Of a DNA stretch of 22,224 nt, positions 14,517 to 22,224 are shown piece after piece. The stretch lies in IMG/VR virus record IMGVR_UViG_3300035180_002195, positions 1 through 22,224 of that record; one strand, 5' to 3'. This stretch comes from a virus. The position numbers were made by a program, and so were the translations under genes. The notes under the pieces were generated by a model. That model was not told the DNA's origin. It was given only the letters and a program-made list of their open reading frames with translations, and ran no database searches. How positions within the stretch are numbered: the first letter of the stretch is position 1; each line of letters opens with the position of its first letter.

Positions 14517-15154
14517 TGGAAGTTTCGATTAAGCTTGAAGGCGTGGAGCAGGTAAAAGAAAAATACAACCCTGAGCAAATTAATAAAGCAATTAAGTTTG
14601 CTTTAAAAAATTCTATTAGAAGTGGCAAGACGGAGGCCAGCTCCGACATTAGAGATAAATTGGGCTTTAATATAAAAAAATCCGATTTAGATAAAAAAAT
14701 ATCTACCAAATATAATGAGACAAAAGCCGAAATATCGGTAGTGGGCGAGCCTATCCTAATGTCCTATTTTAACCCAGTCCAAATAAGCGATAGAGTAAAA
14801 ACTCAGATTAGAACTAAAAAGGGTAAATTTGAATTGACCACCAAAGGGACGAGAAAGCAAGCAACGGGCGGGGTGCAAGTGCAAATTATAAAAGGCCAAC
14901 AAACTATTATAAGTGGGGGCCAATGGCAGATTGGAAATATAGAGGGTGTTTTTATTGCAAGAGGGCGAGGCGGAACACCATTAGTTCTTGGGCGCGAAGC
15001 AAGTGGCAAGTTAATTGCCCTTAAAGTTTATGGCCAAGAATTTATGTTTAAAAAGATTTTGGACTTAGTGGCCGATAAAGTGGTTGTCCAGTGGCAAAAA
15101 GAATTTTCTAATCAAATAAAGCAATTAGAAGCGGGCACGGCAACTTGGATTTGA
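14516..15154 (+). CDS. Minor tail protein Z-like (tail completion) protein
   Basis: A 212-residue protein starting at TAATG 14516; the frame is open further upstream to 14423 but that start lies inside the previous gene. A helical N-terminal half (EQINKAIKFALKNSIRSGK), a segment IRDKLGFNIKKSDLDKKI, then GVFIARGRGGTPLVLGREAS and a C-terminal helix. The order of a basic helical N-terminus, an F-x-A-R-G-x-x-G-x-P loop and an R-containing strand resembles lambda gpZ, which finishes the tail end that joins the head. Its place after the lysis genes is unusual. Its TGA is part of the -35 box of the next promoter. Confidence 0.5.
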   Translation: MEVSIKLEGVEQVKEKYNPEQINKAIKFALKNSIRSGKTEASSDIRDKLGFNIKKSDLDKKISTKYNETKAEISVVGEPILMSYFNPVQISDRVKTQIRTKKGKFELTTKGTRKQATGGVQVQIIKGQQTIISGGQWQIGNIEGVFIARGRGGTPLVLGREASGKLIALKVYGQEFMFKKILDLVADKVVVQWQKEFSNQIKQLEAGTATWI

Positions 15155-15178
15155 CAAAATGGTTTAAATGTTTATAAT
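15151..15178 (+). promoter_or_regulatory. Promoter P1, near-perfect sigma70 consensus
   Basis: TTGACA at 15151-15156 and TATAAT at 15173-15178 are separated by 16 bases; transcription would start near 15185. The -35 box contains the stop codon of the gpZ-like gene, so this promoter starts exactly where the late operon's coding sequence ends. Nothing of useful length is encoded downstream on this strand before a hairpin at 15258. Confidence 0.75.
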
Positions 15179-15184
15179 GTATTT

Positions 15185-15290
15185 AGCCTAATGGTAATTT
15201 TTACTGTATGCCACTTTATTGGGTGGCTCTAATAAGTGTTTCCTACTCAATAGTTAGACGCCCTTAGGGGCGTTTATACTTGATTTTTTA
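15185..15290 (+). ncRNA. Candidate small RNA 1
   Basis: Transcript predicted from P1 to the hairpin at 15258-15273, about 100 nt. No reading frame with a ribosome binding site is seen on this strand. Foldable parts: GCCAC at 15210-15214 with GTGGC at 15223-15227 (8-base loop), which competes with TATTGGGT (15217-15224) pairing with ACTCAATA (15245-15252, one G-U pair). The alternatives exclude each other. I recognise no known RNA family. Could instead be only an untranslated leader running into the next unit. Confidence 0.4.
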
Positions 15291-15337
15291 TATATTTTAT
15301 TGCTACAATAGAGATGGAAAACCTCCGTTAAGTTCAT
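15254..15337 (-). CDS. Possible 27-residue minus-strand ORF
   Basis: On the reverse strand, AAGGAGG stands five bases before ATG (15337-15335), which opens a 27-codon frame (MNLTEVFHLYCSNKI...) ending in TAA at 15254-15256. The ribosome binding site is strong, but no minus-strand promoter is convincing, the product has no recognisable feature, and the stretch is also explained by the plus-strand RNA units. The same DNA read on the plus strand gives the anti-Shine-Dalgarno tracts. Retained as a low-confidence alternative. Confidence 0.15.
   Translation of the reverse strand: MNLTEVFHLYCSNKIYKKSSINAPKGV
15258..15289 (+). terminator. Hairpin terminator, weak T tract
   Basis: ACGCCC (15258-15263) pairs perfectly with GGGCGT (15268-15273) across a TTAG loop. 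The following bases are T-rich but interrupted (TTATACTTGATTTTTT), so termination may be partial and read into the next RNA unit. Confidence 0.55.
15280..15309 (+). promoter_or_regulatory. Promoter P2, extended -10
   Basis: TTGATT at 15280-15285, an 18-base spacer, and TGC-TACAAT with the -10 at 15304-15309. The TGn element compensates for a non-consensus -35. Start expected near 15316, just upstream of the CCUCC tracts. Confidence 0.5.
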
Positions 15338-15402
15338 TATCTCCTCCTTTTTTAGGCCAGCGCCCCAATAGTATTTTGCCAGCTATTGGGGTTCTTTTAT
15401 TA
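15316..15402 (+). ncRNA. Candidate small RNA 2 with two anti-Shine-Dalgarno tracts
   Basis: About 80-90 nt from P2 to a strong terminator. The 5' part contains GGAAAACCTCCG (15316-15327) and, further on, CTCCTCC (15341-15347). The first tract is complementary to CGGAGGTTTT, the ribosome binding site region of the leaders at 17869 and 19205 (10 bases), and to 7-9 bases at the other cassette leaders. The 3' part is a 9-bp hairpin with a T tract. The layout of single-stranded C/U-rich tract plus terminator is that of trans-acting repressing small RNAs. No experiment or alignment backs this. Confidence 0.45.
15363..15402 (+). terminator. Strong intrinsic terminator
   Basis: CCCCAATAG (15363-15371) pairs perfectly with CTATTGGGG (15383-15391) over an 11-base loop, followed by TTCTTTTATT. 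It faces the plus strand and would end both the small RNA unit and any late-operon readthrough before the accessory region. Confidence 0.75.
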
Positions 15403-15439
15403 AAAAAAATATAAAAAAAATAATAATTTTTTAGTGTCT

Positions 15440-15530
15440 TTATTCTTATTATCCTAATGGCATAATCTAACTGAATATTTTTAATAAAAACTTGACAAAT
15501 AAATTTAATGTGATATAGTGTCTTTTAAGT
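15440..15530 (+). promoter_or_regulatory. Promoter cassette A, no coding gene behind it
   Basis: TTGACA at 15492-15497, 16-base spacer, extended -10 TGA-TATAGT (TATAGT 15514-15519). From -35 through the start region it is identical to cassette E, but the sequence then departs: there is no AGGATT hairpin, no CGGAGG and no gene. Upstream, TTATCCTAATGGCATAATCTAAC resembles the TTATCTTAATATAATCTAA element of the other cassettes. Confidence 0.65.
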
Positions 15531-15600
15531 TTAATAAAAAACAATATAAATGACGGCGACGGTGGCCAAAATACTTTAATATAGTTGGCGTTAAGTTTTA
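15526..15600 (+). ncRNA. Possible short RNA from promoter A
   Basis: Between promoter A and cassette B there is no reading frame longer than nine codons behind this promoter. One hairpin is visible: GCCAA (15565-15569) with TTGGC (15585-15589), containing an inner ATA/TAT pair. The 3' end is undefined because no terminator is seen. It may equally be a decayed gene unit. Confidence 0.25.
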
Positions 15601-15612
15601 GAGATTTTTGAT

Positions 15613-15781
15613 AAAAAATAATAAAAAAAATAATAAAAAAAATATACGGTTTAATTATATTGTTATCTTAATATAATCTAAGGGTGTTTTTTAATAAAAT
15701 ACTTGACAAATAAAAAATATTTGATATAGTTAGTCTTAAGGATTTGAAAAAATCCTAAAAAAATTTTTTCGGAGGTTTCCA
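15613..15781 (+). promoter_or_regulatory. Promoter/leader cassette B
   Basis: A-tract region (about 15613-15645), perfect inverted repeat ATTATATT (15654-15661) / AATATAAT (15670-15677) with an 8-base spacer, -35 TTGACA 15703-15708, extended -10 TGA-TATAGT (TATAGT 15725-15730), then at the predicted 5' end of the mRNA a hairpin AGGATTT (15739-15745) / AAATCCT (15750-15756) with a GAAA loop, and CGGAGG at 15770-15775 before ATG 15782. Drives the first acidic paralogue. Confidence 0.8.
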
Positions 15782-16108
15782 ATGAATTATGAACAAACTT
15801 TAAAAGAGTTCGAAAGGCAGGTAAAAGATGGAATGTCTACGCTTACTGTAAATGCTTCTGAATTTTTAGTAACTGAAGATTTGCTCGAAGTTATGGACGA
15901 GATAGTTGAAGAGAGAACGGGCTCTTATAGTGAAAGTATTTTAATTGGTAAAGACGATTTATTCTATATGAGCTCGAATGGTTGGGTCTCGATAATAGTT
16001 ATAAATTGTAAAGATATAGACAATGATACTGACGAAAAGTTTACCGATGAAATATGGAAGGAATTAGAAAAAATAATTGAGGGGTTAGATAAAAATAGAA
16101 AGAGATAG
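15782..16108 (+). CDS. Small acidic protein of unknown function, paralogue 1
   Basis: A 108-residue protein with about 26 Asp/Glu against 13 Lys/Arg. Start set by CGGAGG seven bases upstream. Shares most of its length with the next gene: L-K-E-F-E, LTVNASE, a central GSYS-containing stretch, GWVSIIV and the end GLDKNRK. It has its own promoter cassette and terminator, like a moron gene. Function unknown. Strong acidity and early-type position would be compatible with an anti-host or anti-defence protein, but nothing in the sequence shows that. Confidence 0.7.
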   Translation: MNYEQTLKEFERQVKDGMSTLTVNASEFLVTEDLLEVMDEIVEERTGSYSESILIGKDDLFYMSSNGWVSIIVINCKDIDNDTDEKFTDEIWKELEKIIEGLDKNRKR

Positions 16109-16132
16109 AGGCCTTCGGGCCTCTTTTTTTTT
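16107..16132 (+). terminator. Intrinsic terminator of paralogue 1
   Basis: GAGGCC (16108-16113), TTCG tetraloop, GGCCTC (16118-16123) and a run of nine T. The stem begins inside the TAG stop codon of the gene. Confidence 0.9.
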
Positions 16133-16142
16133 GCCCAAAATT

Positions 16143-16312
16143 TATAAAAAATAATAAAAAAAAATAAGAAAAAAAATACGGCTTGATTATATTGTTATCT
16201 TAATATAATCTAACGGCGTTTTTTTAATAAACGCTTGACAAATAAATTTTATTTGATATAGTTAGTCTTAAGGATTGGTTAAAATCCTAAAAAATTTTTT
16301 CGGAGGTTCCAA
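16143..16312 (+). promoter_or_regulatory. Promoter/leader cassette C
   Basis: A-tract, perfect inverted repeat ATTATATT (16186-16193) / AATATAAT (16202-16209), a second inverted repeat GCGTTT (16216-16221) / AAACGC (16229-16234) abutting the -35, TTGACA 16235-16240, TGA-TATAGT (16257-16262), leader hairpin AGGATT (16271-16276) / AATCCT (16283-16288) with loop GGTTAA, and CGGAGG 16301-16306. Drives acidic paralogue 2. Confidence 0.8.
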
Positions 16313-16642
16313 ATGGGTTATGAAGAAACTTTAAAAGAGTTCGAAGGACAGGTTGAGGCAGGGCGTTACACGCTTACGGTAAATGCTTCTGAATACCTGG
16401 TAAGCGAAAATTTACTAGAGGCTATCGATGAGATAGTCGAAGAAAGGTATACGGGTTCTTATAGCGATAATATCTTAGTCGAAGACGATGATTTATTCTA
16501 TATGGGCTCGAAGGGTTGGGTCTCGATAATAGTTACGGCTTGCTCGTCGATGACCGATGAGGGCGATGAAAGTATAACTAATGAAATATATACAAGGCTT
16601 GAAAAGATAGTCGCGGGGTTGGATAAAAATAGAAAAAAATAA
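16313..16642 (+). CDS. Small acidic protein of unknown function, paralogue 2
   Basis: A 109-residue protein, about 24 Asp/Glu to 10 Lys/Arg, clearly a tandem duplicate of the preceding gene: both contain LTVNASE, DEIVEER, DLFYM, GWVSIIV and GLDKNRK. Differences cluster near residues 14-20 and 82-95. The whole unit including upstream cassette and downstream terminator is duplicated. Divergence with conserved frame and ends shows both copies are maintained. Function unknown. Confidence 0.7.
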   Translation: MGYEETLKEFEGQVEAGRYTLTVNASEYLVSENLLEAIDEIVEERYTGSYSDNILVEDDDLFYMGSKGWVSIIVTACSSMTDEGDESITNEIYTRLEKIVAGLDKNRKK

Positions 16643-16660
16643 AAAGAAATAGAAAAAGAT

Positions 16661-16686
16661 AGAGGCCTTTGGGCCTCTTTTTTTTT
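16661..16686 (+). terminator. Intrinsic terminator of paralogue 2
   Basis: AGAGGCC (16661-16667), loop TTTG, GGCCTCT (16672-16678), then eight T. Same element as after paralogue 1, set back by 18 extra A-rich bases from the stop codon. Confidence 0.88.
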
Positions 16687-16692
16687 GCCAAA

Positions 16693-16864
16693 AAACTATA
16701 AAAAAATAAAAAAAAATAAGAAAAAAAATATACGGTTTGATTTTATTGTTGTCTTAATATAATCTGACGGTAAAAAATAATAAAATACTTGACAAATAAA
16801 AAATATTTGATATAGTTAGCTTCAAGGATTGGTTAAAATCCTAAAACTTTTCGGAGGTGTTCTG
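16693..16864 (+). promoter_or_regulatory. Promoter/leader cassette D
   Basis: A-tract, inverted repeat with one mismatch (ATTTTATT 16740-16747 / AATATAAT 16756-16763), TTGACA 16789-16794, TGA-TATAGT (16811-16816), hairpin AGGATT (16825-16830) / AATCCT (16837-16842) with loop GGTTAA, CGGAGG 16852-16857. It places the start of the ArdC-like gene at ATG 16865 rather than at the in-frame ATG 16829, which lies in the hairpin. Confidence 0.8.
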
Positions 16865-17656
16865 ATGAATGTTTATGATTTGGTGGTCGAAAAAATTTTA
16901 AAGGCAATGGAGCAAGGCATTGCTCCTTGGGTTAGTCCTTATGCAGGCAAGCCAAATAAAAATTTGGTATCTAAGAAAGAGTATCGCGGAATTAATGCTT
17001 TGTTGCTAAATGCAGTAGCAACGGCAAACGGTTTTAAAAGCCCGAATTGGGCGACGTTTAGGCAGGCCACAGAATTGGGCTTGAAAGTTAAAAAAGGCTC
17101 AAAGGCAACGATGGTTGTCTTTTGGAAAGACTTTGAAGTTGAAGAAGAAGAAAAAACCTCTAAAAGGTTTGTATTAAAATACTATAATGTATTTAATGCA
17201 AGCCAGTTAGAAGGATACGAAGAAAAGGATACGGAAGTTTGCAATAATGATGTTTTAAATGATTATTGCAAAAGAGAAAATATAACAATTAAGCTCGCCA
17301 ATGCAGTGGCAAGCTTTTACGCTCCTGGCAGTGATTCTATAGTCTTGGCACCAACGAAACCTGAGTTCTACGATTCGAATTTTGCCCACGAATGCGTGCA
17401 CTCCACAGGGCACCCCAAGAGATTGGGCAGGTTCGAATTGGGTTTTATAGAAACCCCAGAAAGGTCTCTCGAAGAATTGGTCGCAGAGATTGGAGCATCA
17501 ATGTTATGCTCGATAATGGGCAAGCCCGCCCACATCGAAAACACCGCAAGTTATGTTAGCAGTTGGGCAGACTTCCTGAGGGACGATAAAAAGTCCTCGA
17601 TAATAAAAGCTTCTTCTATGGCCCAAAAAGCAGTTGATTATATATTGAATAAATAG
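16865..17656 (+). CDS. ArdC-like antirestriction protein with zincin domain
   Basis: A 263-residue protein. The N-terminal domain (VVEKILKAMEQGIAPWVSPY, then RGINALLL, WATFRQATELGLKVKKGSKA) matches the ArdC/DUF1738 ssDNA-binding domain. The C-terminal half is a zincin-type metallopeptidase with HECVHSTGH at residues 175-183 (HExxH) and EELVAEIGAS near 203-213, which supplies the third ligand in this family. ArdC proteins of plasmids protect incoming DNA from restriction. It forms a single-gene unit with its own promoter and double-hairpin terminator. The start follows the CGGAGG of cassette D. Confidence 0.85.
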   Translation: MNVYDLVVEKILKAMEQGIAPWVSPYAGKPNKNLVSKKEYRGINALLLNAVATANGFKSPNWATFRQATELGLKVKKGSKATMVVFWKDFEVEEEEKTSKRFVLKYYNVFNASQLEGYEEKDTEVCNNDVLNDYCKRENITIKLANAVASFYAPGSDSIVLAPTKPEFYDSNFAHECVHSTGHPKRLGRFELGFIETPERSLEELVAEIGASMLCSIMGKPAHIENTASYVSSWADFLRDDKKSSIIKASSMAQKAVDYILNK

Positions 17657-17701
17657 GCCGAAAGGCTTATATTTGAGCGAGGCCGAAAGGCCTTTTTTTT
17701 T
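17654..17701 (+). terminator. Double hairpin terminator after the ArdC-like gene
   Basis: A first small hairpin GGCC-GAAA-GGCT at about 17656-17667 is followed by AGGCC (17680-17684), GAAA loop, GGCCT (17689-17693) and a run of nine T. The second is the functional terminator; the first looks like a partial copy. Confidence 0.85.
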
Positions 17702-17709
17702 GCCCAAAA

Positions 17710-17881
17710 ATTATAAAATTTTTATAAAAAAATAATAAAAAAAATATACGGTTTAATTTTATTATTATCTTAATATAATCTGACGGTATTTTTTTAATAA
17801 AAACTTGACAAATAAATTTAATGTGATATAGTGTCTTTTAAGGATTGAGAAAGTCCTAAAAAAAGTTTCGGAGGTTTTGAA
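17710..17881 (+). promoter_or_regulatory. Promoter/leader cassette E
   Basis: A-tract, imperfect inverted repeat (ATTTTATT 17756-17763 / AATATAAT 17772-17779), TTGACA 17805-17810, TGA-TATAGT (17827-17832), hairpin AGGATT (17841-17846) / AGTCCT (17852-17857), where the one changed base keeps pairing as G-U, and CGGAGG 17869-17874. Drives a two-gene unit. Confidence 0.8.
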
Positions 17882-18235
17882 ATGAACGGAGCAAGCAACT
17901 CAAAGGTTTTAGGCGTGTTAGTGGATAAAGCGGGACACGGTGTTTTAAATGCAAGTGTCGACGGTATGAGTCTAAATTTAATGTTGGCGTTGGCAAAAAG
18001 GTTCGAGGACTATCTCGGAAAAGAGTTCGTTTGTGCCCACGACGACGACGACAAGGTAGTAATAAGATTAAAAAACACCAATGATAGAAAAGCCCTCAAT
18101 TGGAGCGACGGCGTAGCTGTTGAGGCCACAGATTTAATGGTATTTGATAGCATACCAAAGATAACTGTGGGCGACGAATTAGATATGCAGGCAATAGTAG
18201 TAAGAACAAACTATGCTAAAAGGGGGCAAAAATGA
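17882..18235 (+). CDS. Unknown protein, first gene of a two-gene unit
   Basis: A 117-residue protein behind the CGGAGG of cassette E. It contains DGMSLNLMLALAKRFEDYL, an acidic HDDDDK patch and VVIRLKNTNDRKALNW; a mixed alpha/beta protein without membrane segments. I recognise no family. Its stop overlaps the start of the next gene, so the two are probably translated together. Confidence 0.6.
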   Translation: MNGASNSKVLGVLVDKAGHGVLNASVDGMSLNLMLALAKRFEDYLGKEFVCAHDDDDKVVIRLKNTNDRKALNWSDGVAVEATDLMVFDSIPKITVGDELDMQAIVVRTNYAKRGQK

Positions 18236-18528
18236 ACAATATAGAGATTATGGAACTCCAGTCCAAAAAGGGCTGGGGGTTTTTTGAAATTGACGAGGCA
18301 ACTCAGGAGTTTATCGAAACTGTGGCTGTAGCTGTTGAGGCATTGACGGGCGAACAAACAGCCACAGTAGGGGCGGGCAGGGTGTATCTATATGTAAAAG
18401 CCCCAAAGGTGTGGGCAAATGGTTTAATTATGGTAACCAAAAGAGTAAACGGGCACGAGGTAATTTCTAAGGCCGATAGCGAAAGAATAAAAAAGGCCTT
18501 AGAGATATTAATTGGCAACAAGGCATAA
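18232..18528 (+). CDS. Unknown protein, second gene of a two-gene unit
   Basis: A 98-residue protein starting at ATGA 18232 behind AAGGGGGC. Begins MNNIEIMELQSKKGWGFFEI and contains TVAVAVEALTGEQTATVGAG and a basic helix ADSERIKKALEILIG at the end. No recognised domain. No clear terminator follows; transcription may run on into cassette F. Confidence 0.55.
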   Translation: MNNIEIMELQSKKGWGFFEIDEATQEFIETVAVAVEALTGEQTATVGAGRVYLYVKAPKVWANGLIMVTKRVNGHEVISKADSERIKKALEILIGNKA

Positions 18529-18544
18529 AAAGGTTATTTGTCAG

Positions 18545-18648
18545 GCGTTAAAAAAAATAAAAAAACGCTTGACAAATAAATTTAATTTGTTAGAATGTAT
18601 TTAAAGGATTGGTTAAAATCCTTAAAAAAAGTTTTTCGGAGGTTTCCA
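18545..18648 (+). promoter_or_regulatory. Promoter/leader cassette F, lacking the distal inverted repeat
   Basis: GCGTT (18545-18549) / AACGC (18564-18568) flank an A-rich stretch next to TTGACA 18569-18574; 16-base spacer; TGT-TAGAAT (18591-18596); leader hairpin AAGGATT (18604-18610) / AATCCTT (18617-18623) with loop GGTTAA; CGGAGG 18637-18642. It lacks the ATTATATT/AATATAAT element of the other cassettes. It places the next gene's start at 18649. Confidence 0.75.
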
Positions 18649-18861
18649 ATGGTTAAGGCAGTTTTATTGGGTGAGTGGGACTTCGGGGGTTATAACCATA
18701 ACCACCTGAATGTCTACGAGGGCGAGGGCAAATATTTTATCAACAATGTAACGGACGATGAGGGTTTAATAATTAGCGTTAATGGTGAGGCCATTAATGT
18801 GATAGAGTTGGGCGAGCACCTATGTCCGCCCAAAGTTATAAGCGAGGCGCAAAATGACTGA
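18649..18861 (+). CDS. Unknown small protein
   Basis: A 70-residue protein (MVKAVLLGEWDFGGYNHNHL...) starting at ATG 18649 behind the cassette F ribosome binding site; the frame is open to 18595 but that part overlaps the leader hairpin. It has beta-type segments (YFINNVTDDEGLIISVNGEA) and an acidic C-terminus. No family recognised. Overlaps the next gene by 8 bases. Confidence 0.6.
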   Translation: MVKAVLLGEWDFGGYNHNHLNVYEGEGKYFINNVTDDEGLIISVNGEAINVIELGEHLCPPKVISEAQND

Positions 18862-19126
18862 AATAGAATTCGTGGGTTCTCCAAAAAGAATTCTCGGCGC
18901 AATAGACGCTGAGGCTGTTATAATAGTTTATTGTGTGGGCGAGTATGACGCCCCCAATAATAAATGCAAATCTAATATCTATAGAGATATAAACGGCAAA
19001 GAGTATAAAGACAAATGTTCTAAAAAAATAGAGGGAATGACTGTATATGAATTAAGACACGATGAGCAGGCCGAAAAAATATATTTGATAGAAAGAAGCG
19101 TTGTTTCTGTAAAGGGTGCTTTATGA
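18854..19126 (+). CDS. Unknown small protein
   Basis: A 90-residue protein behind GAGGCG, coupled to the previous gene. It contains AEAVIIVYCVGEYDAPN, two Cys in the middle part and VYELRHDEQAEKIYLIERS. The alternation suggests a compact beta-rich fold. No family recognised. Confidence 0.55.
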   Translation: MTEIEFVGSPKRILGAIDAEAVIIVYCVGEYDAPNNKCKSNIYRDINGKEYKDKCSKKIEGMTVYELRHDEQAEKIYLIERSVVSVKGAL

Positions 19127-19221
19127 GCACCCCCCACAATTATAATAGCAATATGTAGTAATAAGGACGCCGACGCCTGACCATATGGCAGGATAAAGTA
19201 AGCGTTAATATCGGAGGTTTT

Positions 19222-19581
19222 ATGCCCAACCTGAATAAGGTTTTCTTGATGGGACATCTCACAAGAGATGTCGAATTGAAGTATACCGCCACCAATGTGG
19301 CGATTGGGTCTTTTGGCCTTGCTGTGAATACCAAAGGCAAGGACAAGGACGAAGTGCTTTTCGTAGATATTACGGCAATCGGTAAGCAGGCCGAAACAAT
19401 TAGCCAGTATTGCAAAAAGGGCTCCGCAATATTTGTTGAGGGTCGATTGAGATTGCAAAAGTGGCAGGATAAAGAGGGCAATAATAAACAACGAATGGAC
19501 GTTGTCCTAAGTGGTTTCCAGTTTATAAGTGGCGTTAAAGAGAAAAATGAAGAAAGGTTCGAAGACGGCGAGCCGTTCTAA
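19222..19581 (+). CDS. ssb: Single-stranded DNA-binding protein
   Basis: A 119-residue SSB behind CGGAGG. The OB-fold is typical: NKVFLMGHLTRDVELKYT at the N-terminus, IGSFGLAVNT, the FVDITAIGKQAETISQYCKKG core, IFVEGRLRLQKWQDKEG, and a short tail ending DGEPF, the acidic tip with terminal Pro-Phe that recruits partner proteins in bacterial SSBs. The linker is short for a bacterial SSB, as is common in phages. Located upstream of the ERF annealing protein gene, forming a recombination/replication module. Confidence 0.95.
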   Translation: MPNLNKVFLMGHLTRDVELKYTATNVAIGSFGLAVNTKGKDKDEVLFVDITAIGKQAETISQYCKKGSAIFVEGRLRLQKWQDKEGNNKQRMDVVLSGFQFISGVKEKNEERFEDGEPF

Positions 19582-19590
19582 GGGGGTTGT

Positions 19591-19722
19591 ATGATTGATT
19601 ATAAAGATTATGGAAGCAATACCCAAAAGGGTATTAATTGGGCGTTCGGTGTTATCGATTTATTACTGGTTTTGTTAATTTTTATAGAATTAGCCAAAGT
19701 TAAATGGGGGCTGTTATGGTAA
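19591..19722 (+). CDS. Small single-span membrane protein
   Basis: A 43-residue ORF behind AAGGGGG, with a polar N-terminus (MIDYKDYGSNTQKG) and one hydrophobic segment at about residues 17-36 (WAFGVIDLLLVLLIFIELA) followed by basic residues. It lies in tight sequence between ssb and the next gene and overlaps it by 7 bases. No family recognised; small phage membrane proteins of this type can act in superinfection exclusion or host modulation, but this is not shown. Confidence 0.55.
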   Translation: MIDYKDYGSNTQKGINWAFGVIDLLLVLLIFIELAKVKWGLLW

Positions 19723-20195
19723 CTTACAAGCCCCGTAATAAGTTTTCGGAAGAAATGCTTCTATCTGACTATATGCAAATTAAGAGGCTACCAGAGCCCC
19801 ACAGTTTAGCTATAGTCGAGAAGTTTAAAAAGCACTCGCTAAAGTTTCTTGAAGTGGAGCTATTCGCATATATGCACCAAAAAAAGCCAACCACAAGGCA
19901 AGGGAAATTAAACAGGTTTTATAGAATATGGGCTCTAATGTGGTATTTGCAAACTAACCACATTACCTATGCTAAGGCGTTAAATACATTTAATAAATTA
20001 AAGGCGGAAGTTGAGGCAATAGCTAAGGGCCAGCCTGAAGTAGTTAAGGTGTGGTTCCCTAAGCAAGGGTTGTCGGAAGTATATACTTGGGCTAAATGCG
20101 TCCAATATTATTTAAAGTATAAAGAGGCTAAGGGCTTAAAAAGAAATGTATATAAAAAGGTTTTCTTAAAGCTATATCAAGAGGTGTCGAAATGA
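19716..20195 (+). CDS. Unknown basic protein in the recombination module
   Basis: A 159-residue protein. ATG 19716 behind GGGGG is preferred to the in-frame ATG at 19704, which has no ribosome binding site. Lys/Arg and aromatic rich, mainly helical (RFYRIWALMWYLQTN, YTWAKCVQYYLKYKEAKGL). Its stop overlaps the ERF gene start by 4 bases, so a nucleic acid role is plausible. No domain recognised. Confidence 0.55.
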   Translation: MVTYKPRNKFSEEMLLSDYMQIKRLPEPHSLAIVEKFKKHSLKFLEVELFAYMHQKKPTTRQGKLNRFYRIWALMWYLQTNHITYAKALNTFNKLKAEVEAIAKGQPEVVKVWFPKQGLSEVYTWAKCVQYYLKYKEAKGLKRNVYKKVFLKLYQEVSK

Positions 20196-20974
20196 AAGAG
20201 TTAATTTCTAAAGCAATTGAATTAAATAATATGGAGCTATTAAAACAATTGTTAGAGTCGCAGGCAGAGGCAGAAAAAATGGCCTCTAAAAAGGTTTTCT
20301 ATAAGTCTTTGTCCGAATTCCAAAGCGAGTTGCCAGCAATAAAAAAGACTAAGACGGTTTATAATAGAGATGGTAAAACAGTCCGCTATAATTATGCAAG
20401 TTTCGATGACGTGGTTGAGGCAATAAAGCCACTGTTAAATAAGCACGGGTTGTCTTACCGTTTCGAGGCCGAATACCAAGATAAAGCAACAATTACTGTG
20501 CGATGTTTTATAAGCCACGAAGCGGGCCACCAAGAGGTTACCGAGTTTAAGGCAATAGTGCAATATTCGGAGTTTATGCTCCCTATCCAGTCTTTGGCTA
20601 CGGCTTTAACTTATGCTAAGAGATATTCTATATCTTTGGCGTTGGGATTGGCAACCGAAGAGGACACTGACGCTAACGATTTAGAAAATGACAAGGAAGT
20701 TGTAAATACCAATATTAAGAAAGAAATCGAAAAGGCTAAAGAAGCGCAAGCAAAAATTCAAGAAAAAATGAAAGAGACAAAAGATGAGCCTTTTATCGAT
20801 GAAAAACAGGTTAAAAATATCCAGCAGATAATAGAGCGAAAAGGCCTAAAAGAAGACGAAGCCATACAAATTATAACTAAGATAATTGGGCGCTCGATAA
20901 TATCTGTCGATAAAATAAAGAAATCCGAAGCCAATAGAGTAATGATTGAGCTCGTAAAGGCAGGCGTGGAATGA
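20192..20974 (+). CDS. ERF-family single-strand annealing protein
   Basis: A 260-residue protein. The N-terminal domain has the ERF signature: VRYNYASFDDVVEAIKPLL around residues 65-83, followed by HGLSYRFE, and LPIQSLATALTYAKRYSIS with LGLATEEDTDAND around 131-162. ERF proteins anneal complementary single strands in phage recombination and repair. The C-terminal third is charged and helical (a coiled-coil KKEIEKAKEAQAKIQ) and likely mediates SSB or DNA contact. It is flanked by ssb upstream and a probable PD-(D/E)XK nuclease downstream, the usual partners. Confidence 0.93.
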   Translation: MKELISKAIELNNMELLKQLLESQAEAEKMASKKVFYKSLSEFQSELPAIKKTKTVYNRDGKTVRYNYASFDDVVEAIKPLLNKHGLSYRFEAEYQDKATITVRCFISHEAGHQEVTEFKAIVQYSEFMLPIQSLATALTYAKRYSISLALGLATEEDTDANDLENDKEVVNTNIKKEIEKAKEAQAKIQEKMKETKDEPFIDEKQVKNIQQIIERKGLKEDEAIQIITKIIGRSIISVDKIKKSEANRVMIELVKAGVE

Positions 20975-21201
20975 AAAAGAATTCGTTGGCCGACAAGATT
21001 TATGTTATACAAAATACATTGACGGACGAAATGCTAATACCCGAAACTAAGTTAGTGGTTATTTATGGAATTCTTGGGAATATTGAGGGCAAGATTGAAT
21101 TAGAAAAGTTTTCTAAAGAGTTATTTATAAGTAAATACAAGCTTAAAAAAGTCGAAAAGCAGTTAAAAGAGCTTGGCATAATAAAAATAAAAGATTTATG
21201 A
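20971..21201 (+). CDS. Small winged-helix-like DNA-binding protein
   Basis: A 76-residue protein with ATGA overlap. Residues ~37-72 ([18 protein letters not shown] followed by [15 protein letters not shown]) form a helix-turn-helix with a wing-like end, as in the N-terminal part of phage replisome organiser or DnaD-type proteins. It could be a replication or transcription factor. Small size and lack of a known second domain prevent a closer call. Confidence 0.55.
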
Positions 21202-21209
21202 GGTGTAAA

Positions 21210-21770
21210 ATGATTTTAAGCGATAAAGAAATTATTAAAAGGGCAATCAATGGAATGATAGAGCCATTTGAAAGCAGGCAGGTAAAAGATATCGGAGGCG
21301 TAAAAATTATATCTTATGGAGTTTCCAGCTATGGTTACGATATGCGTATTTCTGACGAGTTTAAAATATTTACCAATGTAAATAATGCAATAATTGACCC
21401 GAAAAACTTTTCTGAGAATAGCTATATTGATTATGAAGGCAGTTCTTGCATTATACCACCTAACAGCTTTGTTTTGGCAAGAAGTTTAGAATATTTTAGA
21501 ATACCGAGAGATATCCTAACCATATGCGTTGGCAAATCTACATATGCAAGGTGCGGAATTATTGTAAATGTAACACCTTTTGAGCCCGAATGGGAAGGCT
21601 ACGTTACCATTGAAATATCGAATACCACCCCTTTGCCAGCTAAAATATATGCCTTTGAAGGTATAGCCCAAGTTATTTTTCTAAGGGCTAATGAAGTGTG
21701 CGAAGTAAGCTATAAAGACAAAGATGGTAAATACCAGAATCAAAAAAAGCTTACGACGGCGAAGGTGTAA
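21210..21770 (+). CDS. dcd: dCTP deaminase
   Basis: A 186-residue protein of the dUTPase/dCTP deaminase superfamily; it converts dCTP to dUTP and ammonia. Diagnostic motifs: SSYGYDMRI at 39-47, [20 protein letters not shown] at 108-127 with the conserved Ser/Arg, and [11 protein letters not shown] after it, with the catalytic Glu region typical of deaminases. Start ATG 21210 sits behind GAGGTG; the ATG at 21198 lacks one. Phage copies adjust thymidine supply for replication. Confidence 0.93.
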
Positions 21771-21771
21771 A

Positions 21772-22029
21772 ATGAGATTGATAGAGTTTAAAGATGTAGG
21801 CGAGGCCGAAAGGTTTTTTAGTGAAGTAGGCTACACCACACAGTTTTCTAAAATATTTGAAATAATAAAGATGGAATGGAAGGACGAGGCCCCAACAAAG
21901 ACGTCCGAAAGGTTTCTCCATTATTGGAATGATAGACTAGCGGATACGCCTTGCAGGCCGAGCTTTAAAGATTATACGGTTGGGTTTATTTTAGTAATGC
22001 ATTTAATAAATGAATTGCGCGAGGTGTAA
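21772..22029 (+). CDS. Unknown small protein
   Basis: An 85-residue protein starting at ATG 21772 behind GAAGGTG. Helical and acidic N-terminus (LIEFKDVGEAERFFSEVGY), a middle KMEWKDEAPTKTSERFL and an amphipathic C-terminal helix. No family recognised. The start is one base after the dcd stop codon. Confidence 0.55.
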   Translation: MRLIEFKDVGEAERFFSEVGYTTQFSKIFEIIKMEWKDEAPTKTSERFLHYWNDRLADTPCRPSFKDYTVGFILVMHLINELREV

Positions 22030-22030
22030 T

Positions 22031-22224
22031 ATGGAGCATTGGAGCCATAGCAAAATAGAGGCAACTAAAGGTTGCAAATTGGCATTTGAAAAAAGATACA
22101 TCGAGAAAGCACCAGCAGATACCGAAATACCAGAGTTTGAGTCCGCAAAAGAAATCCACGAAAAAATCCAACAGGATTTTATGGACGGCAAAGCCAATTA
22201 TGAGGCTTTAAATGAGTATTTAAA
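22031..22224 (+). CDS. PD-(D/E)XK-type nuclease, N-terminal part, cut by window edge
   Basis: The first 64 residues of a gene behind GAGGTG that runs off the window. Start MEHWSHSKIEATKGCKLAFEKRYIEK is the S-x-S-x-[IL]-x-x-[YF/A]-x-x-C-x-x-x-[YF] pattern of PDDEXK_1/Cas4-like nucleases, and AKEIHEKIQQDFMDG gives the G/H-x-x-[IH] helix that follows. The catalytic motifs lie beyond the edge, so activity cannot be judged. Such a nuclease next to ssb and an ERF protein would be the exonuclease partner for strand annealing. Confidence 0.6.
   Translation, partial: MEHWSHSKIEATKGCKLAFEKRYIEKAPADTEIPEFESAKEIHEKIQQDFMDGKANYEALNEYL

Follow-up and report, generated by a model that had tools for sequence, protein, structure and literature searches.

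A repeated promoter, 5' hairpin and ribosome-site cassette at recombination junctions of an uncultivated tailed phage

Cassettes that pair an early promoter with a stem-loop have reportedly been described in T4-type phages by Arbiol et al. in 2010 and Comeau et al. in 2014. They are known as the promoter(early)-stem-loop (PeSL) cassettes of those phages (PMC4503421). A similar motif, in which a conserved promoter and an inverted repeat precede most open reading frames (ORFs) of one genome arm, is found in the haloarchaeal tailed virus HGTV-1, where a role in regulation and shuffling has been suggested (PMC3950731). These are the closest known kinds for the element analyzed here, a cassette repeated six times (copies A to F) in a stretch of 22,224 bases from IMG/VR (record IMGVR_UViG_3300035180_002195; 'the window' below is this whole stretch). 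The source virus is an uncultivated tailed phage infecting bacteria, with all genes on one strand. The reading towards which we lean is that the cassettes are autonomous expression modules that also serve as recombination junctions, and whose hairpin would stabilize the mRNA from its 5' end.

Anatomy and register of the cassettes

A preliminary description of the window had proposed six promoter cassettes, five of them followed by an AGGATT/AATCCT hairpin and the sequence CGGAGG. We located all six promoters, each comprising TTGACA, a 16-nucleotide spacer and TGn-TATAGT (TAGAAT in F) and each matching 11 of 12 positions of the sigma70 consensus:

15492..15519, + strand, promoter of cassette A, without hairpin, Shine-Dalgarno (SD) sequence or gene downstream
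15703..15730, + strand, promoter of cassette B
16235..16262, + strand, promoter of cassette C
16789..16816, + strand, promoter of cassette D
17805..17832, + strand, promoter of cassette E, identical to that of A
18569..18596, + strand, promoter of cassette F, with TAGAAT

In B to F an AGGATT/A(A or G)TCCT hairpin lies exactly 7 nucleotides past the -10 element and is followed by an A-run, a T-run and the SD sequence CGGAGG. All five hairpins folded as had been stated, including the 7-basepair stem and GAAA loop of B and the altered base of E, which pairs as U-G in place of U-A; the stem of F also reaches 7 basepairs.

15739..15756, + strand, hairpin of B, 7 basepairs, GAAA loop
16271..16288, + strand, hairpin of C, 6 basepairs
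16825..16842, + strand, hairpin of D, 6 basepairs
17841..17857, + strand, hairpin of E, 6 basepairs with one U-G pair, 5-nucleotide loop
18604..18623, + strand, hairpin of F, 7 basepairs, with an extra A-U at the base (pattern match at 18605-18622)
15770..15775, + strand, SD sequence CGGAGG of B
16301..16306, + strand, SD sequence CGGAGG of C
16852..16857, + strand, SD sequence CGGAGG of D
17869..17874, + strand, SD sequence CGGAGG of E
18637..18642, + strand, SD sequence CGGAGG of F

The predicted folding energies of these five hairpins range from -6.1 to -7.1 kcal/mol (z-scores of -2.5 to -2.9), and the hairpin is formed in 84-99% of the predicted ensemble at 37 °C. Exact matches to AGGATT-N2-9-AATCCT occur four times, against 0.02 expected in shuffled sequence. 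A search of positions 14900-22224 against Rfam gave sub-threshold matches only, none above the gathering score.

With the tail-hub protein as query we recovered twelve fragments that belong to the same phage group, at 59-100% identity; two of them span the cassette region. One of these, G002 (3300036715_001619), carries five copies (A2, B2, D2, E2 and F2) and one gene fewer than the window; the other, G001 (3300035182_001706), carries the single copy F3 and lacks the whole A-E gene block. Across all three contigs the hairpin pattern on the + strand is confined to cassettes. A strict scan of IMG/VR for the architecture returned only these two relatives and one chance match inside a portal-like gene, and the cassette is therefore specific to this lineage within IMG/VR. 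Looser scans yielded candidates that we rejected: a search for TTGACA...AAGGATT...AATCCT gave 119 stretches, mostly chance matches within genes; a TATAGT-anchored search gave 29, of which only L161 was real; and L162, which has TTGACAAATAAA and AAGGATT, was without the 3' arm.

The three contigs together provide ten hairpin copies, five from the window and five from the relatives. In all ten the promoter spacer is 16 nucleotides and the discriminator 7, the latter length being fixed despite seven distinct discriminator sequences, and the stem begins 8-9 nucleotides after the -10 element. Both lengths were preset in the search pattern; every copy recovered by looser scans also complied with them. 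Other distances vary: the linker from hairpin to SD sequence (10-15 nucleotides), the loop (4-6) and the interval from SD sequence to start codon (6-7). Variable columns number 1 of 12 in the stem and 6 of 7 in the discriminator (Fisher p=0.0017), the sole stem substitution being the change from U-A to U-G in E and E2. Because the MAFFT alignment interrupted the 3' arm of both E and F2 with its gap, base pairs were counted by pattern. The loops (UGAAAA, GGUUAA, GAGAA and GAAA) differ in sequence and length while the stem persists, as had been proposed; since the cassette copies recombine, some of this variety reflects shuffling.

The repeat is longer than first described. Four copies extend over 175 nucleotides and include a 40-nucleotide AT-rich element upstream of the promoter; before C, D and E the repeat reaches approximately 110 nucleotides upstream, to the T-run of the preceding gene's terminator. 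Promoters A and E are identical across more than 40 nucleotides.

15644..15684, + strand, AT-rich upstream element of B (ATACGG...TAATATAATCTAAGGG), an imperfect inverted repeat with TATAAT
16176..16216, + strand, AT-rich upstream element of C
16730..16770, + strand, AT-rich upstream element of D
17746..17786, + strand, AT-rich upstream element of E
18534..18579, + strand, inverted repeat overlapping the -35 element of F, 16-nucleotide arms, 94% complementary

The AT-rich element is a second conserved feature of A to E, an imperfect inverted repeat around TATAATCT that lies 20-60 nucleotides upstream of the -35 element and is absent from F; it might act as a second promoter or bind a regulator. 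The upstream part of F differs, with no AT-rich element and with an inverted repeat of its own (18534-18549/18564-18579) whose arms, TTATTTGTCAGGCGTT/AACGCTTGACAAATAA, also occur in L124; this could be an operator, or the terminator of the 98-residue gene. Beyond the -35 element TTGACAAATAAA is invariant in all copies (window 15492-18580), and a half palindrome, CAAAT-N7-ATTTG, lies between the -35 and -10 elements of B, C, D and F; either may mark a repressor site. The 74 nucleotides after promoter A (window 15492-15600) are 92% identical to the relative, and this region might encode a small RNA or be the remnant of a lost module. We rejected a structured RNA under promoter A, as the window's GCCAA/TTGGC pairing is not kept in the relative.

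Recombination junctions and the genes between them

The preliminary description had overlooked that the cassettes lie where gene content changes. In G002, the region upstream of B2 corresponds to that of window B (39/40 and 40/40 positions), while the protein encoded downstream corresponds to that of window C (92/109 identical residues, versus 71/108 for B). The informative sites switch from B-like to C-like at L124 6637-6665, a stretch running from the promoter spacer to the loop of the hairpin, with 22 B and 4 C sites before the switch and 24 B and 63 C sites after it (permutation p=0.0002). In G001, the upstream flank of A is joined to gene F through one cassette. The G002 chimera and the G001 join thus constitute two differences in gene content with a junction inside a cassette, and on this sequence evidence genes have been gained or lost by recombination at the cassettes.

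The cassettes would drive the following genes and are separated in part by terminators:

15782..16108, + strand, gene B, 108 residues, acidic (isoelectric point (pI) 4.3), no family
16107..16124, + strand, terminator after gene B
16313..16642, + strand, gene C, 109 residues, acidic paralogue of B (pI 4.2), no family
16661..16678, + strand, terminator after gene C
16865..17656, + strand, gene D, ArdC-type antirestriction protein (phrog_7245, 2e-62) with ArdcN and MPTase-PolyVal domains (2.3e-30 and 9e-21)
17679..17694, + strand, terminator after gene D
17882..18528, + strand, gene E (117 residues) and the next gene (98 residues), no family
18649..18861, + strand, gene F, 70 residues, pI 4.4, no family, conserved in all three phages

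A terminator closes the module in three of the five cases (B, C and D). Only D among the cargo has a named function; AlphaFold models of the B/C and F proteins were of low confidence (predicted local distance difference test scores of 46 and 40). A cargo of acidic proteins and an ArdC-type antirestriction protein would fit a host-takeover or counter-defence region.

In the window, tail genes extend to approximately 15.15 kb and are followed by the cassette region, SSB, an Erf-type annealing protein and a gene labeled dCTP-deaminase-like by inspection. G002 overlaps the window and continues through nuclease-like, primase-helicase-like, methylase, terminase and portal genes (named by inspection, the terminase by a separate search), and from this order the cassettes sit at the border between late tail genes and replication genes. 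Terminator-like hairpins precede the region, which we infer to be an accessory region of early type, early timing included. The relatives of SSB lie in scattered genomes and do not identify the host.

15151..15178, + strand, consensus sigma70-type promoter (12 of 12 consensus matches) where the last tail-side gene ends, ahead of A and distinct from the cassette copies
15255..15276, + strand, hairpin resembling an intrinsic terminator, ahead of the accessory region

The leader of the SSB gene (window 19165-19224; L124 9649-9699; L121 16163-16222) has a conserved GCCTGACC-N4-GGCAGG-A..AAGTA arrangement enclosed by an outer stem. The two sides of this stem differ between phages yet pair (window, ACGC/GCGT; L121, GCGAC/GTCGC), in a comparison of three sequences of which L124 has a different minimum-energy fold. 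The leader had no match in Rfam and occurs in IMG/VR only within this phage group. It is a candidate structured RNA, possibly serving SSB autoregulation.

Possible roles of the hairpin

In this reading a module consists of a strong sigma70-type promoter, a hairpin of 6-7 basepairs predicted to lie where transcription begins, a linker rich in A and U, a strong SD sequence and one or two genes. Transcription usually starts 6-8 nucleotides after the -10 element, which places the predicted start on the first A of AAGGATT or on the preceding base and would leave one or two unpaired 5' bases. Hairpins at the 5' end slow RppH and stabilize mRNAs in Escherichia coli and Bacillus subtilis, and B. subtilis RppH requires at least two unpaired 5' nucleotides (PMC3997798). 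Given that requirement and the predicted start position, protection of the 5' end is the most economical role for the hairpin, which probably shields the start of each message: with at most 1-2 unpaired nucleotides, decay that depends on the 5' end (RppH followed by RNase E or RNase J) would be slower, and the stabilized messages would support high early expression of genes of counter-defence or host-takeover type. The cassette sequence shared between modules would allow homologous recombination to delete, add or swap genes with every junction still functional.

Several observations weigh against this combined reading. No two-sided compensatory change was found in the stems of the ten copies; covariation is thus absent, which speaks neither for nor against a structure, and selection on the hairpin structure is plausible. 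The 6-basepair hairpins are predicted to be only about half formed at 70 °C, which would matter if the host were a thermophile. Transcription from the TATAAT of the upstream element might give longer messages that carry the hairpin in their interior, and cassette A retains its promoter without any hairpin. Genes may have been lost in the relatives or gained in the window.

The preliminary description had attributed the pattern to selection on an RNA structure rather than to recent copying alone. The part that stands is the exact register with the predicted start, a stem far less variable than the discriminator, and loops that change; beyond this the proposal is not supported as worded, since the copies offer no compensatory change but one G-U substitution and an otherwise invariant stem. 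Alternatively, the hairpin might have no function of its own and be carried along with a recently copied promoter and ribosome-binding unit that recombination has homogenized. The cassettes do recombine, promoters A and E share their long identical stretch, and there are just four distinct hairpin sequences among the ten copies. We nevertheless consider this explanation doubtful, because the divergence seen in the discriminator, the linker, the loop and the upstream element has not extended to the stem or its register, and because the spacing is exact to 1 nucleotide in 10/10 copies.

The hairpin might instead be the site of a phage or host RNA-binding protein, either a regulator or a boxB-like antitermination factor, that controls the accessory genes together. 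Five transcripts have one hairpin in common, and some of the loops are GNRA-like (GAAA in B, F2 and F3; GAGAA in E), as is the loop of boxB. The loops vary in sequence and length, however; there was no Rfam match and no candidate regulator was identified; and the stretch from 14.4 to 19.4 kb holds no boxA-like GCTCTTTA at one mismatch or fewer. Antitermination would also be unnecessary, since each terminator precedes a new promoter. A regulator-binding site, which had been offered earlier as an alternative to protection, thus gained no positive evidence, and we regard it as unlikely. We attach similarly little probability to the broader idea that the hairpin tags a dispersed mRNA regulon, in which the 5' hairpin is recognized by an RNA-binding protein or an RNA that the phage encodes, and all accessory (counter-defence) messages are switched or protected as a set; if this were true, any gene landing behind a cassette would join the regulon.

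As DNA, the inverted repeat could be an operator at the start site for a dimeric repressor. It lies at +1/+2, a usual operator position, and the spacer half palindrome and invariant TTGACAAATAAA noted above could belong to such a site. Yet half sites separated by 4, 5 or 6 basepairs would be rotated relative to one another, which argues against binding by a dimer; the change in E destroys the DNA symmetry while retaining an RNA G-U pair; and no repressor or integrase was recognized by inspection among the ORFs of the relative's extension. We judge this very improbable. A riboswitch or thermometer, in which the AAUCCU arm, partly complementary to GGAGG, and an A-run/U-run linker able to pair would free or hide the ribosome-binding site, can be largely set aside, as blocking the 5' arm in silico caused no consistent change in SD accessibility (ten leaders at 37, 60 and 70 °C); alternative pairing that hides the SD sequence was rejected on this ground.

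Comparison with known systems

The leader of T7 gene 10 likewise places a 5' hairpin, an A/U-rich stretch and a strong SD sequence in succession, behind a T7 RNA polymerase promoter and before a late gene. The stabilizing stem-loops of aprE, ompA and papA (PMC3997798) are also alike in standing at or near the mRNA 5' end before a strong ribosome-binding site, but they serve single genes, whereas here one hairpin is reused across phage modules and stabilization is predicted. Cluster K mycobacteriophages carry start-associated sequences (SAS) and extended SAS (ESAS), a repeated start-associated element with variable-spacer inverted repeats upstream of non-structural genes; the ESAS is 17 basepairs, imperfect, and located at the translation rather than the transcription start (PMC3203893). 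The 13-basepair SAS consensus GGGATAGGAGCCC had 4 matches here with up to 3 mismatches, against 3.0 expected, none of them in cassettes. The HGTV-1 motif differs in its archaeal TATA-box promoter and in the domain of its host (PMC3950731).

The likeness to PeSLs is that both are composite promoter-terminator units repeated between small accessory genes, with close relatives differing in gene content at junctions in the motif. Each of these features is present: a terminator lies immediately before each of the repeat units of C, D and E (for F it is not adjacent); the motif is repeated between variable accessory genes, with six copies in the window and 5 and 1 in the relatives; and recombination junctions fall within it (in G002 and G001). 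Unlike the hairpin of a PeSL, the conserved hairpin here follows the promoter, stands at the predicted mRNA 5' end and leads into a conserved SD sequence, and a terminator distinct from it lies upstream; relative to the PeSLs described in PMC4503421, this 5' hairpin appears to be an addition. The phage, judged from its gene content, is also not a T4-type myovirus: no T4 genes were seen, and the overlapping relative has a terminase 44% like those of Roseobacter and Faecalibacterium phages, together with ERF, SSB and a single tail hub. The cassette therefore works like a PeSL without being filed within the T4 family. A gene that recombination places behind it would acquire at one stroke a promoter, a ribosome site and protection of its message; if the hairpin does stabilize messages, such a mobile promoter and RNA protector would offer a simple rule by which early counter-defence genes could be recognized in uncultivated phages. 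The cassette serves as a compact example, outside the T4-type phages, of a swap-in slot for counter-defence genes, comparable to the PeSL.

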